From Bremia lactucae (lineage: Eukaryota > Oomycota > Peronosporomycetes > Peronosporales > Peronosporaceae): a DNA stretch of 64,000 nt. This document shows positions 9,331 through 44,430 of this stretch, piece by piece. The translations under genes and the position numbers were made by a program. Under the pieces are notes generated by a model, which was not told the origin of the DNA, searched no databases, and saw nothing but the letters and a program-made list of their open reading frames with translations. The stretch is taken from contig NC_090617.1 in NCBI RefSeq assembly GCF_004359215.1, positions 4,503,381 through 4,567,380 of the forward strand. Direction: 5' to 3'. Numbering within the stretch: the stretch's first letter is position 1; each line of letters starts with the position of its first letter.

Positions 9331-10315
9331 ATGAGCCATAATATTGATTGGGCTCATTTTCCCCACCTCTCCGAAAATCGTCGGGAGGTGGCAGGGCTTA
9401 TGGCGAAGGGACTTGGTGAACAAGCCCTGGCCAGGCTCCTGGGTAGTTATCCTGAGCAACATGTTGCTCAGGAGAAGCAGTTTGAGGCATTCGTGCTCGG
9501 ACAGCGGAGGGCCGCGTCCGAGGCACAGCGCCATGCTGCGGCGGAGTCCGTCACTCAGACTCAGTATGAGCTGAGGCATGATTAGGCTCGGAGCGAGGGT
9601 CTAAACAGGACTGTTGAGATGCTCTCTGCCCGGCCGCATCAGCCGAGGCCCGTTCGGGTGGATACGCCCAAGATCGAAGGAACTGCAGCATACACGATTG
9701 TCCACTAGGTTTTAGCCGTGGTGCAATGCAGTGTCGCCCAACTCATCGAGGACGACAGCCGGATGGTGTCGTACGCCATGTCGCATCTGCGCGGCAAGGC
9801 CTCAGAAATTTTACTCGGCGCTTATGGTGGACAAAAAGGCGTTCCCTACATGAACGATCTATAAGGAAAAGATTCGCGCCATGAACCAGCTGCCGAACAA
9901 CGTTGTGTTGCTTCAGACGCGCTTCTTTATGGCGCGACAGGCAAAGCAATCTCTGCAAGAGTATGTGCAGGAGATGCGCTCGCTGTCGGCGTCTATTACC
10001 GTAGGTCCGGTTCCGGAGCACATTAGGGTGCCCACATTTATGAACGGACTACGGCATGGCCATCGCGACAGGCCCTTTTCGGAAAGGTGCCGTCGACGAT
10101 GTAAGAGGCAATTCAAACTATCTTGGTTGAGGAGCAATCCTACAACAATTCCTCGGCGACAGCTTGGTATAAGCCGCCTGCCGAGAGGTCAAATTTTACT
10201 CCCATGGAGTTGGGCAATGCTGACGTTGACTTATTTAAATGCGGCAAGCGCGGCCATATGATGGCTCGCTGCTATGCCAGGGTCCTTGCTGGGGCGAAGA
10301 CGCCCAATAAAAAGA
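9331..10315 (+). pseudogene. gag of gypsy D1 (broken)
   Basis: The frame MSHNIDWAHFPHLSENRREV is chosen because the upstream ATG at 9286 overlaps the primer-binding region. A stop occurs at 9583. Further frames hold HLRGKASEILLGAYGG and LQTRFFMARQAKQSLQEY, a typical retrotransposon gag core, followed by SITVGPVPEHIRVPTFMNGL. The zinc knuckle reads L-F-K-C-G-K-R-G-H-M-M-A-R-C (10228-10269), so the first Cys is lost. The gene is cut at 10316 by E-family sequence. Confidence 0.7.
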
Positions 10316-10455
10316 TTTTGGCCGCATTTATTACCCATAATAAACGGGATGTAAGTGACTAACCATTTTAAAATTAGATAAAAGGGTATTTTACTAATAA
10401 AGTAAATGTACCACAACAACGGTTCTCCAACCGATGTGTGCCCCATTACACCCCC
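10316..10455 (-). repeat. LTR E fragment inside gypsy D1
   Basis: From TTTTGGCCGCATTTATTACC to GCCCCATTACA this matches the inner edge of the 3' LTR of E1 (38636-38766). On the minus strand it starts with the LTR tip TGTAATGGGG. It borders the E-type antisense ORF to its right, in the same arrangement as in E1. Confidence 0.75.
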
Positions 10456-10560
10456 CCCATCAGACTGTTGACACCGAGTGACAACATTCGCTTCCTTTCC
10501 TCTTTAAGGTTGGAGCCTAAACAGCTAACCGTTTGGTTGTGTTTTCCACTCCTTTGTCTA

Positions 10561-11611
10561 ATGACAATCAAGCGTGAGTCACAGACTCTTGGCACCTTTC
10601 TCGACGATGAGGGAATGGTGGACTTTGAAAGTCACTCTCAATCAGAGAAGGAGGAAAAAGAGCGTCGTTCGCTCACGTCTTCTCCTCCAGACGAGCGTCG
10701 GCGAGCCTTGAATCCGTTCCAAGAAAGTGGTGCCGCTGATGTCTTAACTTCATTGAGCAGGACACGGGACCCTGAGTCCTACATATTTACGAATCCGCTC
10801 GATGAAGAGCAAGAGCAGATAATCCTGATAGAGGATAGAGCTCGTCGTCGAGCTGCCGAAATAGCGAAAGCTAAAGCTCATAGTGAATATAGATTCACTC
10901 TGCTTAGTGCGGACGAGCGTCTCAAGGAGATAGCGGGTCATAGCTTGGCCATCTCGATCTCTGGTGACCCGGTGAGGACGCCAGAGGAAATCGCTTCTCG
11001 CGACGCTCTTCATGAGCAATATCTTACGCCGAAGGTAATGACGCAAAGCCAGTAACCAACGCATTTACATGATCAAGCCCGTGGGGCTTCGATGACCTCC
11101 ATAAGAAAAATTTCGATCATTTTGATTCCAAACGAAACAAGGAGTGAGAACGAAGTCTCATTCAAGAACTGGGTAGACGGGCCCGCCGAATTCGTAATAT
11201 CTGGATATCAAAGAGAGCGGATAGAGGTGATCTTCGTTTGGAACGGAAGTTTCGCTTCGATATTGCTAAACTTAAGGCCAAAGGCCAGTCATGTTACGTT
11301 CGGCATTTATGCCAAAGACGAAGAAAGGCCTGCCAATATTTCAGTGCTTCGGTTGACCGTACAACCATGGATCGAAGCCGCACTGATGCAATAGACCCAC
11401 TAAATTCCACGTTTAGTGGTAAGAAATGTCGTTTGACGCGAGTTGACCTTGAGCTTGGCACTCAAAAACGTCAACGGCATACGTACAATCTTGCTGAAGA
11501 GGTACCTCGAGCTCCCAAGAGTTTTTAGAAAAGGAATACCCTAGCCAATTCACTAGACACTGGTACTGATCCTAACGACGACGTCGCTTTAAAAATTTCT
11601 CCACATGTAGG
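10561..11611 (+). pseudogene. Antisense accessory ORF of family E, copy E2
   Basis: The ATG at 10561 is the first one shared with E1. The first 164 codons are intact: FLDDEGMVDFESHSQSEKEE, then TNPLDEEQEQIILIEDRA, an Arg/Ala-rich helix (RARRRAAEIAKAKA) and LTPKVMTQSQ, where a stop at 11053 replaces a Tyr codon. The reading continues in broken form through NETRSENEVSFKNWV and STFSGKKCRLTRVDLELGTQ. At about 11611 it breaks off and gypsy D1 resumes. The protein is acidic at its start and charged and helical later. Function unknown. Confidence 0.6.
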
Positions 11612-37489: not shown

Positions 37490-37980
37490 GCCGCAGTAAT
37501 GGGGCACACATCGATTTGAGAATCGTTGTTATGGTACATTCACTTCATGGGTAAAATACCCTTTATCATATTCTAAAATAGTAAGTTACTTATATCGCAT
37601 TTATAATGGGTTAAAATGTGTCGCCGCTAAAAATAAATCTGGCGACCGAAATCTTTTTTTTAATTAGCTAGGGTAAGGTTTTAATTAATATAATTAAATG
37701 GAGTTCAGTTCCCCTTTTCATCTTAAAGCGTTCAGTGCCTTCCTAAGGCTTGCGCGTTGATCTATAAGAGATAAAGCCAATCTAAGGTATAAACTCTTGG
37801 GCACTAGTTGCCACTTGGTTATACGAACCTCTAAATTTCTTGAACTGAAATGAATTCAGCGTTTATAGCATGTACGACTCCCTGAGCTCTTAAACCAATT
37901 AGTTGTGTGGAACTAAGGGATTCTCTGAGTCTAAAAGTCTTCCTCTGACTTAAGAAGCGAGGTGGCTCCGCTACAGCCGC
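37490..37980 (+). mobile_element. Solo LTR of family E with 5-bp target duplication
   Basis: The LTR (37495-37975) starts AGTAATGGGG, one base off the family tip TGTAATGGGG plus a changed first T, and ends GGCTCCGCTACA. It is flanked by GCCGC on both sides (37490-37494 and 37976-37980). Such solo LTRs arise by recombination between the two LTRs of a full insertion. Confidence 0.85.
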
Positions 37981-38302: not shown

Positions 38303-38307
38303 TGACT

Positions 38308-38766
38308 TGTAGCGGAGCTACCTCGCTCCTAAAGTCAGAGGAAGACTTTCAGACTCAGAGAGTCACTTAGTTCTATTGAACTAATAGGTTTAACAACACA
38401 GGGAGTCGTACAAGCTAGCAAATCTTAAGAAATCCTAGTTCAAGGGATTCAGCGGTTCGTAAAACCAAGTGGCAACTAGAGCCCAAGAGGATATACCTTA
38501 GAAAGGCTTCTATTCCTTACAGATCAATGCGCAATCTTTAGGAAGGCACTTAACGCTTAAAGATCAAAAGAGGAACTGAACTTTATTTAATTATTTATAT
38601 CTAAAAAATTTAATCTAGCTAATTAAAGTAAATTTTGGCCGCATTTATTACCCATAACAAACGGGATGAAAGTAACTAACTATTTTAAATTAGATAAAAG
38701 GGTATTTTACACATAATGAAAATGTACCACAACAACGGTTCTACAACCGATGTGTGCACGATTAAA
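38308..38766 (-). repeat. 3' LTR of E1
   Basis: Begins TGTAGCGGAG on the given strand and ends near GCACGATTAAA, a decayed form of GCCCCATTACA. Close match to 43979-44425. Confidence 0.85.
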
Positions 38767-38877
38767 CCCTAACCTATCAGACTGTTGACACCGAGTGACA
38801 ACATTCGCTTCATTTCCTCTTTGAGGTTGGAATCTGAACAGCAAACCGTTCAGTTGTGTTTAATATTCCTTTGTCTA

Positions 38878-40188
38878 ATGACAATCAAGCGTGAGTCACA
38901 GACTCTTAGCACCTTCCTCGACGATGAGGGAATGGTGAACTTTGGAAATCACTCTCAATCAGAGGAGGAGAAACAAGAGTGTCGTTCGCTCACGCCTTTT
39001 CCTCCGGATGAACGTCAACGGGCCCTAATCCGTTCCCAGAACGTGGTGCCGCTGATGTCTTAACTGCATTGAGCAGGACACGGGACCCTGAATCCATCAT
39101 TATTACGAATCCGCTCGATGAAGAGCAAGAGCAGATAATCCTGATAATGGATAGAGCTCGTCGTCGAGCTGCTAAGATTACGAAAGCTAAAGCTAATAGT
39201 GAATATAGTATCACTCTGTTTAATGCGGACGAGCGTCTCAAAGAGATAGCGAATCACAGCTTTGGCACCTGGATCTCCGGTGAACAGGCGAGGACGCCGG
39301 AAAAGATCGCTGCTCGCAATGCTCTTCATGGGCGATTCCTTACGCCAAAGGTAATGACGGGAAGTCAATATCTGACGCGTCATCAAGCCCGTGGGACTTC
39401 GGTGACCTCCATGAGGGAAATTTCGATCGTTTTGTTTCCAAACGAAACAAGGAGTGAAAACGAAATCTCATTTGAGAACTGGGTCCACCGGGCCCGCCGC
39501 CTTCGTAATATTTAAAATATATGTGAGTCTGCGGATAGGGCTGATGTTCGTTTGGGACGGAAGTTTTGCTTCAAAATCGCTAAGCTTAAGGTTAAAGGCC
39601 AGTAACGTTCGGCATTTATGCCACAAAACGAAGAAAGGCTCTGCCGATATTTTAGTTCTTCGGTTGACCGTACAACCATGGATCGAAGCCGCACTGATGC
39701 TATAGACCCACTTAACTCCACATTTAGTGGTGGGAAGCGTCGTTTGACGCGAGTTGACCCTGAGCTTGGCACTCAAAAACGTCAACGGCGTACGGGCAAT
39801 CTTGCCGAAGAATACCTCCGAACTACCAAGAGTTTTCAGAAGAGAGGTACCCTAGCCACTTCACAAGATACTGGTATTGACCCTCACGACGACATCACTT
39901 TAAAAGTTTCTCCACATGAAAGTGAAGGTTTTCTCGCGCATCAAGCAGCGCGGGAGGGGGCCGAAATTTCGGCGAAAGCATTTGATGCTCTACGGCACGA
40001 GGTGCAACTTCTTCGTGACGTCCTTGCAAGGGTTGAGAGCTTTTTTTGAGGCAATTCGAAACCGTCTTTCGACGTTGGAGCGTCAGCAGCCTCGTTTAAA
40101 GGGCCAGCTGGACATCCCGGTGAGGATGCAGCAATCTGCGGCACGACCGCCTTCAAGGCCACGTGGGAAGTGTCCAAATTTGACTTAA
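38878..40188 (+). pseudogene. Antisense accessory ORF of gypsy E1
   Basis: The frame opens with MTIKRESQTLSTFLDDEGMV and an acidic stretch. A one-base loss near 39027 shifts it; the next frame (39069-39515) has SRTRDPESIIITNPLDEEQE, DRARRRAAKITKAKANSEYS and NETRSENEISFENWVHRARR. After further shifts 39618-40049 gives SGGKRRLTRVDPELGTQKRQ and a helix EISAKAFDALRHEVQLLRDV. A run of seven T at 40043-40049 shifts it once more; with it read through, IRNRLSTLERQQPRLKGQ continues to a stop at 40186-40188. The end meets the end of pol head-on. E2 (10561-11611) preserves the same protein. Function unknown. Confidence 0.6.
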
Positions 40189-40354
40189 GCAAGCCAACGT
40201 AAAACACTGGGTGTGTACGCAGCTTGCTGGGAAGGTTTGGCGTATGAGCTAGGCTCTTCTTGGCTATGACCGTAAATGGTCCAATAAAGCGCGGGCGCAA
40301 TTTGGTCTTGAAGACCGCGGCAACCAAGTTCACAGATAGATTTTTAGCGTTTAG
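39990..40354 (-). pseudogene. Integrase C-terminal domain of E1
   Basis: LRPRFIGPFTVIAKKSLAHT then LPSKLRTHPVFYVGLLKSNL is the usual C-terminal domain, in an open frame of 130 codons. Its meaningful part ends near 40170, just where the antisense ORF ends; the remaining codons are probably the shadow of that gene. Confidence 0.7.
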
Positions 40355-41250
40355 TCAAACTCGGTCTCTGACCGCATAAGAATTAATACAGCTTCTGCCT
40401 TTGGTATCTGCTTGTTCTTTTTGTTTGTCTTGGCTATCAGCCATCATATCCCTTACGTGTCTTAAGACACTAAATCGTGTCGCAAGAAACTCGCTTTCTT
40501 GTTTCAAAATGGAAACAGGGCTTATATCAGCAAGCTTATCGGTTAATTCTTCCCCATCAAGCCCTGAACCACGCAGTGGTATCGTTAGTGGAACGCGTGG
40601 GTGGGAAAGACCGTTTATATAGAACGGAGTATAGCCTGTAGAGGCATACACAGCGTTATTTAACGCAAACTCCACCACTGGGAGCATGGAGCTCCAGCGC
40701 TTTGCTGTCTGAGCACACACGCTGCGTAAAACGTCCTCAGTGACGCGATTGACACGTTCAGTTTGACCATCGGTCTGCGGATAGTCCGCAGTGGACATAT
40801 CCAATCTGGTGCCAAGCACTAGGAGAATTGATTTCCAGAATTTTCCCGTGCAACGGGGGTCTTGATCAGAGACAATTGCCACTGACAGGACATGTTGTCG
40901 AAACACGCGATTGATAAACAGCTTAGCTGTACCCTCTCCATCAATCGAATCCGGTACGGCCGCTAAGTGAGCCATTTTGCTCAATCCATCGAGAAGAACT
41001 ACTATTCCGGAGTAACCGACTAAATCTTTCGGTAGTTCAAAAACAAAATCCATACTAATGGACTCCCACCATTATATGGGGACGTGAAGACTCGCCAGTG
41101 GCGTAGTAGCATACGCCGAGGGTTTAGCCTGTGGGCAAGTTTCGCATGTGCGAACATATGTGCTGACCAATTTATAAAGTTTGGGCCACCAATAGCACTG
41201 GCTAATAGAGCCGTAGTTCTTTTTTCTACCGAGATGACCGCCATGGACAG
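40355..41250 (-). pseudogene. Integrase of E1 (catalytic core intact)
   Basis: The core frame (232 codons, 41053-40355) has the first Asp in MDFVFELPKDLVGYSG, the second in SDQDPRCTGKFW and the Glu in TDGQTERVNRVTEDVL, so the DDE set is complete. It continues with VEFALNNAVYASTGYTPFY and RHVRDMMADSQDKQKEQAD. The zinc domain is in a different frame upstream (41244-41020) with a decayed Cys pair (FAHAKLAHRL). Broken at the join, but one of the best kept catalytic cores in the window. Confidence 0.8.
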
Positions 41251-41499
41251 AATCGTGTCCCTAAAAGAGGATTCGGTACTTCAAATCCTCAACATGAGAA
41301 ACAACGACACGCGAAGGGTCCGCGATGTCTGTATAATAAAGTAACAGGATGTTGTCGATAGAATGGATGTAACCTTGCACGCAAACGTGCCGGCAATTTA
41401 ATACCTGAATCCGAGTTCTTTAAAGCTCGTAGCAAAGCTTAACACTGCTCATCCTTGGCGTAAGCCGAACGGATTAATTCAGGAATAGGCGACGAGATA

Positions 41500-42110
41500 G
41501 TCGTTAAATGAGAAATCTCATAATCCGGCCTGAGTGATAACGCATCGGCCAAAGCAATCTGCTTGCCGGGCTTATACTACACCTCGAAGTTATATTCTGC
41601 AAAAAGGATAGCCATCGGGTCATTGTCTGTGAGAGATGGGGCGACTTAGTCGCCGTGCGCGTGATCTGTATATATCACAAAATGCTCAGAGCTGAGCAGA
41701 TGAACTCTGAATTTGACGAGAGCATACTTCATAGTAAGTAACTCTTTGTCATGAACTGGGTAGTATTTTTCCGCAGCTTTAAGCTGTCTAGACTCGAACG
41801 CAATAACACGTTTACGGCCATCAACATCTGTTTGTAACTAGGCACTACCAATAACAAAATCCGATAAGTCACAGACGACACTGAAAGGCCAATTTGGATA
41901 TGGCAGTGCCAGAATCAGGGCATCGATAAAACTATCCTTAACTGCTCGAAAAGCATTTTTCGGTGCTAATCCGGCACCATTCTGTTTTCTTTTAAAGGAG
42001 ATTAAATGTTGGCCTAGCCATATCAGCGAAATTTCGCTATATTTGTGTAAATAATCGGCGAGGCCAAACCACTTCCGCAAATCCTTTTGTTTTTTAGAAA
42101 CTGGCTAATC
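41500..42110 (-). pseudogene. RNase H of E1 (decayed)
   Basis: FGLADYLHKYSEISLIW marks the RT end, PFSVVCDLSDFVIGSA the RNase H start. The YTDHA and ADALSR regions are readable only in scattered frames (AFCDIYRSRAR, ALADALSLRPDYE near 41540). Confidence 0.65.
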
Positions 42111-42870
42111 TACTATGGCTATTACCTTAGCGGGATCCGCATTAAGGCCTCGCTTTCCAATGAAGCGTCCTTAAAAAAAATTTCATCTGCACCTAAATGC
42201 ATTTAGATGCATTGGCTACAATTTTTTTGTGCGTATGCACTCGAGCACTGCTCGCAAATGGTCGATATGGTTTTACATATCCGACCGACCCTGCTCCGCA
42301 CGACTATGGACAAAAATGTCATCGAAATAAGTATGTGCATAACCCCGATGAGGGCGAAAGGAACAGTTGCGTCACTATACGATTAAATGTTGCTGGGGCG
42401 TTGGAAAGCCCTTGTAGCATAACTAGCCACTCCCATAACATACCGCTTGCGGTGCTTACCGCTGTAAGCGGGATATCGCTAGCTCGCATGAGCAATTAGT
42501 AGTAACCATCGACTAAGTCCAGTGCACTTTACATTGTACATCCCACCTGTTCTGAAGAACATGCTTTCTAGGAGTGGGGGGGGGTTGTGCTGGCATTGTG
42601 ACAGCGTGAAGCTTATGATAAGCATGTTCAAAGCGCCTTTTACCGTTTGGCTTTTTGAGACAAAATGTCGGAGTCGAATGAGGAGATTTGCTCTCTCGTA
42701 CCATTCCAGCCTCGTGCTGAGTACGGTAAACAATTTTCACTCACGTCAAACTGCTCCCTTGGTAAAGGCCATTGTCGTGTGACGCAGTATTTGGTTCCCG
42801 GAACCAAGTCAACTTCATGACGAACACCTCTATCCGGAGGTAAAACAGATGTTGGATTATTACATACCAC
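42111..42870 (-). pseudogene. Reverse transcriptase of E1 (decayed)
   Basis: Fragments include RGVRHEVDLVPGTKYCVTRQ, SPHSTPTFCLKKPNGKRRF and, at 42330-42319, the codons of YFDD followed by IFVHSRA. The motif A region has lost its reading (DVQCKVHWT). Many shifts and stops. Confidence 0.7.
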
Positions 42871-43285
42871 ATTTTAGAATTCCTTAATCAAGGAATAAAA
42901 GAAATCCGTAGGATCTTTAAGAATCGATGAACCATTTCGCGCACTAAGTGCAGCTTTTGTGTCATCCGGGACAGCTTCGTCGAGAAGTGACGATGAGTTT
43001 AACTCAACCATAGGTCGAATGACCACCATTTTACGATAAGTCACCAGTTTTCAAGGCTCGATCGCACTCATCAATAGACATTTCGTCTAGCTCTAAAAGA
43101 GCATGTAACGAGGGGATTGCCGCAAGGCTAACTTCCCCCTCAATGTTACCGCTTACGCCATTTACAAGCGTATGTAATTTCTCACTCGTATTATTTTGTG
43201 AGGGTATACACGCTTCGTGTCCACCCTGTGTTGGAGTGGAGACAATACGCCTCTTAGAGGCCGGGACATTGACGTCATCGGATTT
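42871..43285 (-). pseudogene. gag-pol linker of E1
   Basis: [20 protein letters not shown] and [20 protein letters not shown] lead to [22 protein letters not shown] sequence. This block usually stands between protease and RT in oomycete gypsy elements. A stop separates it from gag, and the zinc knuckle and protease that should lie before it are missing. Confidence 0.55.
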
Positions 43286-43738
43286 TCAAGCCTGTATTGA
43301 ATCTATACAGCACATGATGTCTAATTTGACATCCGACAAGGAGTTTGGTAATTCAACTTCCTTATCCAGCGAACGTTTACGTGTCGCTTTACGTGCGGTA
43401 TGAGGATGTGACCCAAAATGCCCTGGCGAACCGCCAATTGTGTCACTATTCAACATGCTTGTCATTTGCTGTTTCAGCGAATCCCATGAGGAAAAATCGT
43501 CGTTTATGGACGTGCTGCGCGATAATGCCCACTCCATGGCTCTATCTCCAAGTTTGGAAATGGTCATAGCCACCTTTTGTCGTTCTGTTAAGAACAAGGC
43601 GGAATCAATGGACATTTCCATCTGCTTAATCCAAAAAAGGAAATTTTCTCCCTCTTTTCCCTCAAATGTTTTCACATTTATAGTTAGAGGGTGAGCCCGC
43701 GGATCTAAGTCAGGCACAAAAATGTACGGAGTTGGCAT
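43286..43738 (-). CDS. gag of E1 (truncated, open)
   Basis: A 150-codon frame begins MPTPYIFVPDLDPRAHPLTI and contains VKTFEGKEGENFLFWIKQME, ERQKVAMTISKLGDRAMEWA and SSWDSLKQQMTSMLNSD, the order of a retrotransposon gag core. It stops where an internal deletion joins it to the linker, so the C-terminal half and the zinc knuckle are gone. The E3 copy at 18151 has the same start. Confidence 0.7.
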   Translation of the reverse strand: MPTPYIFVPDLDPRAHPLTINVKTFEGKEGENFLFWIKQMEMSIDSALFLTERQKVAMTISKLGDRAMEWALSRSTSINDDFSSWDSLKQQMTSMLNSDTIGGSPGHFGSHPHTARKATRKRSLDKEVELPNSLSDVKLDIMCCIDSIQA

Positions 43739-43968
43739 AGATGCCGCTAAGTGGTCCTGTTACTGACCAATCAGGGAGATTTCGTACCGCATGAAGGATT
43801 TGGGCCTTGCATGTAGGACCTCTGGGCCCTGCAAAATAATAAATTCCACGTCCAAATAAGGATTCGAGATTGTCAGAAGCGGCGTCTGCGCTTCTGACAA
43901 TTCTGGAACCTCTTCCATTTTCGTGAGGGTTTAGTCTTTTAAAGACTCAGGAGTAGATTGAATACGAG

Positions 43969-43976
43969 TGCTACCA
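43969..43976 (-). other. Primer-binding site of E1
   Basis: TGCTACCA on the given strand, i.e. TGGTAGCA on the element strand, two bases from the LTR end. It matches the A2 and D1 sites and the initiator-Met tRNA 3' end for eight bases. Confidence 0.55.
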
Positions 43977-43978
43977 GG

Positions 43979-44425
43979 TGTAGCGGAGCTACCTCGCTCC
44001 TAAAGTCACAGGAAGACGTTCAGACTCAGAGAGTCACTTAGTTCTATTGAACTAATGGGTTTAACAACTCAGGGAGTCGTACAAGCTAGCAAAGCTTAAG
44101 GAATCCTAGTTCAAGGGATTCAGGGTTCGTAGAACCAAGCGGCAACTAGTGCCCAAGAGGATATACCTTAGAAAGGCTTCTATTCCTTACAGATCAATGC
44201 GCAATCCTTATAAAGGAACAAAATGCTTTAAGGTCAAAAGAAGAACTGGACTTTATTTAACTATTGAAAATTTAAAACCTTACCCCAGCTAATTAAAATT
44301 GATTTTTGTCGCATTTATTACCCATATTAAGAAACTAACTATTTTGAATTAAGATAAAAGTGTATTTTACCCATAAGTAAATGTATCACAACAACCGCTC
44401 TCCAATTGATGTGTGCCCCATTACA
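43979..44425 (-). repeat. 5' LTR of E1
   Basis: 447 bp, from TGTAGCGGAG to GCCCCATTACA on the given strand; both tips intact. Confidence 0.88.
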
Positions 44426-44430
44426 TGACT

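Follow-up and report, generated by a model that had tools for sequence, protein, structure and literature searches.

Known examples of genes that run against the sense strand of a long terminal repeat (LTR) element come from a few retroviruses and a single plant lineage. In plants, antisense open reading frames (ORFs) between pol and the 3′ LTR are a feature of the Retand lineage, as presented in a 2025 survey (PMC11963269) that describes the TRP28 ORFs as conserved across the lineage, of unknown function and proposed to be regulatory. Among the retroviruses, HBZ and APH of the human T-cell leukaemia viruses (HTLV-1 to -4) are antisense-strand genes at the 3′ end of an LTR element, with HBZ transcripts reported to start in the 3′ LTR and HBZ to overlap sense genes (PMC8781085), and the ASP gene of human immunodeficiency virus 1 (HIV-1) is presented in the same source as overprinted antiparallel on a sense gene. 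Oomycetes harbor Chronos and other Ty3/gypsy elements with a captured chromodomain (PMC5348765), and the main text of that report on Chronos contains no occurrence of 'antisense', 'opposite' or 'additional ORF'. In a 64,000-nucleotide stretch of the Bremia lactucae genome (contig NC_090617.1, positions 4,503,381 to 4,567,380; hereafter the window), the Ty3/gypsy element E1 and the fragment E2 carry copies of an antisense frame that is almost certainly a real gene of their family. An earlier note on this DNA had drawn attention to the frame; new relative to it are the antiparallel overlap of the gene with pol and its already-annotated relatives in Phytophthora, Peronospora and Hyaloperonospora. 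No earlier description of this oomycete gene was found in the literature covered, which left most subscription journals outside its scope.

E1 reads on the minus strand, and its antisense gene occupies 38878..40188 of the plus strand (1,311 bases, about 436 codons), from an ATG at 38878, 111 bases inside the inner edge of the 3′ LTR, to a TAA at 40186-40188. The E1 copy is broken, with two in-register stops and two frame-breaking indels by comparison with a family copy, in agreement with the opposing frame of about 430 codons with lesions described in the earlier note. That note had placed the frame between the end of pol and the 3′ LTR on the opposite strand; its position beside the 3′ LTR stands, but its last 465 bases (39724..40188) overlap the 3′ end of pol antiparallel, over the linker and chromodomain. 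The site of the family's pol stop codon lies at 39724..39726 on the minus strand, about 0.96 kb from the end of the 3′ LTR at 38766. E2, at 10400..11607 on the plus strand, was rightly identified as the same gene at the same LTR edge, as this interval aligns as the LTR inner edge followed by a truncated second copy with its ATG at 10561. A frame at 10201-10312, adjoining the LTR edge of E2, resembles by eye the gag zinc knuckle (CCHC) of another element.

As far as the published descriptions go, the nearest analogue is the antisense TRP28 ORF of the plant Retand elements, which has another protein and another layout. Both genes run opposite to gag-pol in the interval from pol to the 3′ LTR, the oomycete one lying partly inside pol, and the likening to antisense ORFs of the Grande and RIRE2 type made previously is apt as an analogy in light of the Retand survey (PMC11963269). 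The Retand elements are described there as non-chromoviruses with 2.9-6.6 kb between pol and the 3′ LTR, whereas the oomycete family has a chromodomain, only the 0.96 kb mentioned above, a long antiparallel overlap with pol and an oomycete host. The proteins also differ: at the sequence level, Pfam scans gave no TRP28 (PF04195) match, either for 10 proteins at a cut-off of E<=1 or for 8 at E<=0.1, and the 25 families listed (of 70) for 28 members do not include it. The bZIP family is likewise absent from the Pfam matches seen, despite a predicted coiled coil, and the oomycete protein further departs from HBZ in having its basic motif about 60 residues before the coil and in overlapping pol instead of pX. 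ASP is young and lies over env, whereas the oomycete gene lies over pol, includes a large non-overlapping part and occurs in three oomycete genera. Chronos has an extra archaeal-type RNase H, whereas only RT_RNaseH families were found in the pieces scanned here, the pol of E1 being broken.

The genome (115.9 Mb in 220 contigs) contains at least 41 matches to the family by DNA search (40 candidates scored) and at least 150 by protein search. Twelve of the 150 listed protein-search matches (group G000) have identical score, open length and stop pattern at different contigs and places, as after a recent burst. For analysis of the frame, 72 pieces were placed on the coordinates of a real copy, L018, and identical and more than 99.5% identical pieces were dropped, leaving 66. 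After a majority stop (present in more than half of these copies) at reference position 7, within the LTR, the antisense frame has no other until 1498, leaving 496 codons between them. The other five frames have 14-39 majority-stop positions each in the same span and 15-42 over the whole 1,761-base stretch. Outside the overlap, stops occur at a rate of 0.0046 per codon in the antisense frame vs 0.025-0.092 in the others. The antisense ATG is kept in 60/66 copies and the end stop in 50/66, with 15 gaps at the latter. Single copies are mostly dead; among those covering at least 400 of 444 codons, 53/58 have 1 to 6 in-register stops and five have none. The earlier note had proposed checking the frame for openness on a consensus, and the gene survives this check run without one, on the 66 copies themselves.

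For the measurement of selection, private changes were taken to represent decay after insertion, and shared changes the period in which the lineage multiplied. Outside pol, private changes in the antisense frame have a ratio of nonsynonymous to synonymous changes (N/S) of 3.05 (467 to 153). The ratio falls to 1.31 for changes found in at least 4 copies (77 to 59; Fisher p=2.2e-5 vs private) and to 0.57 for those in at least 10 (12 to 21). Codon position 3 holds 21 of the 33 changes common to at least 10 copies (chi-square p=0.0008). The other two plus frames show no such fall (odds ratio (OR) 1.09 and 0.97), and apart from the mirror frame, discussed below, the minus frames show no clear one (OR 1.00; OR 0.66, p=0.059), every minus frame being full of majority stops. 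Because 40 of the 66 copies were drawn from a list ordered by protein score, we reran the test on the other 26, taken from the DNA search and the window, and obtained OR 0.34 (p=4.6e-5) at threshold 3, OR 0.29 (p=7.7e-5) at threshold 4 and OR 0.17 (p=7.3e-6) at threshold 6. In a short pol-only stretch (reference 1500-1655), N/S drops from 2.54 to 0.10 in the pol frame, with a parallel drop in the mirror of that frame. The comparison of the antisense frame with pol that had been suggested thus favors the gene, its shared changes being skewed to synonymous ones as are those of pol in this stretch. Taken together, the patterns of substitution indicate that amino-acid changes in the antisense gene were selected against while copies multiplied, and database comparison shows conservation of the protein across three oomycete genera.

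In the family, the pol stop is at reference 1019 and that of the antisense gene at 1498, such that about 480 bases code on both strands. The final 140-200 antisense codons sit antiparallel over the pol linker and chromodomain in one fixed phase. Whether this arrangement extends to other species was asked from proteins only, by determining if one DNA could encode both an antisense protein and a pol C-terminus, antiparallel and in the phase seen in the family, for 51 of 75 antisense proteins (those of more than 200 residues) and the best 120 of 271 pol C-termini. When matched to the strand opposite a pol C-terminus, 39/51 antisense proteins score 21 to 179, the lowest, P0013, being marginal, and the family control gave 102/102. 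The remaining 12 score 11 to 15, which is shuffle level, and at least six of these (P0004, P0016, P0018, P0046, P0064 and P0073) end or change sequence before the overlap. Nine chosen high-scoring pairs reach 91-179, vs at most 9 in other phases and at most 14 in 72 pol shuffles. The best database pairs agree at 154/155, 156/158 and 189/199, and same-species pairs at 129/140 (P. effusa) and 147/168 (P. cactorum). Cross-species matches reflect pol homology in part, and it is the near-perfect and same-species pairs that provide strong cases at the level of protein comparison. The overlap spans the pol end in the five pairs that were located, and in P0092 it covers residues 279-418, directly after SH3 (225-270) and containing the chromodomain (354-405).

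Relatives of the antisense protein number 29 by sequence, with a 388-residue open stretch of L018 as the query, and 61 by a profile of 28, giving 75 distinct proteins, both searches scoring only the roughly 8,000 candidates having most words in common. The named relatives are all from oomycetes of the Peronosporales, with 11 sources: Peronospora effusa, P. matthiolae, P. farinosa, Hyaloperonospora arabidopsidis, Phytophthora ramorum, P. cactorum, P. sojae, P. palmivora, P. nicotianae, P. idaei and P. aleatoria. They are annotated as hypothetical, unnamed or uncharacterized, with the exception of one model called ZIP permease (P0067). Most of the near-invariant columns (P0001 residues 236-247) fall outside the pol overlap. 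Linkage to pol recurs in other species. In P. idaei, a pol C-terminus (PI125_g21549) and the antisense protein (PI125_g21550) have adjacent locus tags. The P. cactorum model P0039 fuses the antisense protein with the pol SH3, and the unnamed P0026 also fuses it with pol pieces, as would be expected of rearranged copies. In the Phytophthora cactorum model P0073 (GQ600_7469), the antisense protein contributes its N-terminal part, joined to a PexRD54 WY effector domain, placing element DNA beside or within an effector model. A pol C-terminus of Albugo candida (P0090) is as close to the family as are some from Peronosporales (64% identity to L012:2438-3382:- at 89% query coverage), which may reflect either an ancient element common to both lineages or horizontal transfer; the antisense relatives listed by the sequence and profile searches include none from Albugo.

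The protein is predicted to begin with an acidic, disordered N-terminus, followed by an ordered domain of about 170 residues that is basic, by a disordered stretch containing a lysine- and arginine-rich (KR-rich) motif that resembles a nuclear signal, and by a 57-residue C-terminal coiled coil. AlphaFold models place the ordered domain at about 81-255 in P0001 and about 121-287 in P0016, with disorder before and between, at moderate overall confidence (mean predicted local distance difference test scores 63.9 and 70.0). Net charge in P0001 and P0006 is -8 and -11 over the N-terminus and +11 and +7 over the ordered domain. The predicted helix at 375-431 has a strong heptad pattern, with a hydrophobic fraction of 0.88 at a/d and 0.27 elsewhere.

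The explanation we favor, and consider probable, is that this is an accessory gene of a chromodomain Ty3/gypsy family, maintained by selection and lying antiparallel over the pol end, whose product functions as a nuclear, self-associating regulator of the element. Nearby promoter activity could drive antisense transcription from the side of the 3′ LTR, followed by translation and entry of the protein into the nucleus, where the basic domain may bind nucleic acid or chromatin and the coiled coil may drive oligomerisation. The protein would then control transcription or integration of the element in trans, as HBZ does for HTLV-1 and as has been proposed for plant TRP28, two antisense products encoded next to a 3′ LTR that it resembles in position and composition. 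Through the overlap, the antisense gene would be tied to the pol chromodomain, making it hard for the element to lose or change either one alone. It is possible, if rather doubtful, that oomycete chromodomain gypsy elements overprinted an antisense regulator on the pol chromodomain independently of plants and HTLV, with both proteins acting in one pathway of integration-site choice or chromatin reading and locked together by the overlap.

Several observations weigh against this explanation. The mirror minus frame outside pol also shows a fall in N/S (OR 0.54, p=0.0016), as is expected because it shares third positions with the antisense frame, but it contains 15 majority-stop positions. Within the overlap, the antisense frame shows a weak selection signal (p=0.038 at >=4 copies, p=0.127 at >=6), and that of the pol frame is weak too (p=0.31 and p=1, respectively). 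The neighboring P. idaei locus tags PI125_g21549 (pol C-terminus) and PI125_g21550 (antisense protein) give no overlap match (score 9) because the antisense gene model lacks its C-terminus. The KR-rich motif lies in the part coding on two strands, so that pol may explain its conservation, and the simple KR-rich pattern is missing in one of seven checked relatives. No convincing Pfam or PDB match was obtained for the antisense protein, leaving its function without a family or fold pointer. Finally, an initiator-like sequence upstream of the antisense ATG is conserved no better than its surroundings and, by a hand estimate, would be expected by chance about once per ten leaders.

Most of the probability not assigned to a regulator falls to counter-defence or RNA-level roles. 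A protein that counters host defence, for example silencing of the element, instead of regulating it directly is a lesser but not negligible prospect; retroelement accessory proteins often have this role. Phytophthora gypsy elements are reported as small-RNA targets (PMC3522703), which would suit such a protein, but no Pfam or PDB match to a known suppressor emerged and nothing specific speaks in favor. Less likely again is that the working product is the antisense RNA, which would pair with the 3′ end of the sense RNA, feed small-RNA silencing and limit copy number, with the protein being secondary. The tail-to-tail overlap of about 465-600 bases and the sense and antisense small RNAs that P. 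infestans gypsy elements yield according to the same study are consistent with this, yet pairing needs no open frame, and amino-acid changes are selected against outside the overlap.

The remaining alternatives concern whether the frame serves the element through its protein at all, or in another capacity, and each is very improbable. A captured host gene or inserted passenger useless to the element would fit the lack of any family match pointing to retroelement origin, but would not have kept an open frame under selection across hundreds of copies and three genera, and the agreement with pol C-termini is far above chance in 39/51 relatives, with at least six of the other 12 ending before the overlap. 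Slimmer still is the chance that the frame is a shadow in which pol codons happen to leave the opposite strand open and the antisense protein is irrelevant. The 140-200 codons opposite pol in one fixed phase and the weak antisense signal in the overlap would be expected in that case; about 284 codons (reference 166-1018), however, are located beyond pol, in a region where every sense frame has majority stops, and this part is open, under selection and conserved in other genera, which largely refutes the idea. A structural or envelope-like particle protein has equally little to recommend it: its position after pol recalls env of retroviruses, but it is encoded on the opposite strand, no hydrophobic 19-residue segment above 1.0 occurs in the seven relatives checked, and no viral fold match was found at E <= 0.001.

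The setting of the gene within E1 is that of a Ty3/gypsy element, judging from its repeats and domain matches, in a family that carries a chromodomain. The paired LTRs have TG..CA ends and lie at 38308..38766 (3′ LTR) and 43979..44425 (5′ LTR), both on the minus strand, between TGACT target-site duplications at 38303..38307 and 44426..44430, confirming the structure given in the earlier note. On the plus strand the LTR starts with TGTAGCGG and ends with CCATTACA, the left copy being worn, and the pair aligns over 464 vs 450 bases with 87.8% identity over 449 aligned bases (Kimura two-parameter (K2P) distance 0.134). An inverted LTR fragment at 37801-37975 faces the left LTR, with 175 bases that are 82% complementary to 38308-38482 at a distance of 332 bases. 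The gag-like, RNase H, integrase and Tf2-1-type SH3 pieces are all on the minus strand, which identifies the left LTR as the 3′ one, in line with what the earlier note implied. From the 5′ side, the element comprises a gag-like frame (43286..43759; weak DUF4939 and Ty3_capsid matches, below cut-off), a broken stretch presumed by position to be reverse transcriptase (42479..42873), without a Pfam match in the scanned pieces, RNase H pieces (41646..42104; RT_RNaseH, E 2.9e-16, and RT_RNaseH_2), an integrase piece (40355..41071; rve PF00665, E 6e-4, below the curated cut-off) and the SH3_Tf2-1 domain (40181..40312; PF24626, E 6e-8). The order RNase H, integrase, SH3_Tf2-1 and chromodomain was found in pol, with RNase H, H2C2, rve and SH3 in window pieces and family copies; the chromodomain is matched in the relative P0092 (Chromo PF00385, E 6.7e-12) and partially, below cut-off, in the family copy L020. 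A candidate primer-binding site, identified by eye at 43965..43976 on the minus strand, begins 2 bases past the inner edge of the 5′ LTR and reads TGGTAGCACTCG, which we take to differ from the common initiator-methionine type.

For the organisms concerned, the antisense gene would explain a set of plant-pathogen database proteins now called hypothetical. Its long antiparallel overlap with the pol chromodomain, conserved across genera, would constitute a rare instance of two-strand coding in a cellular genome. If the interpretation holds, an oomycete case with an unrelated-looking protein would make antisense genes in LTR elements a repeated solution and not a curiosity, and would render the question of their role testable in three groups.

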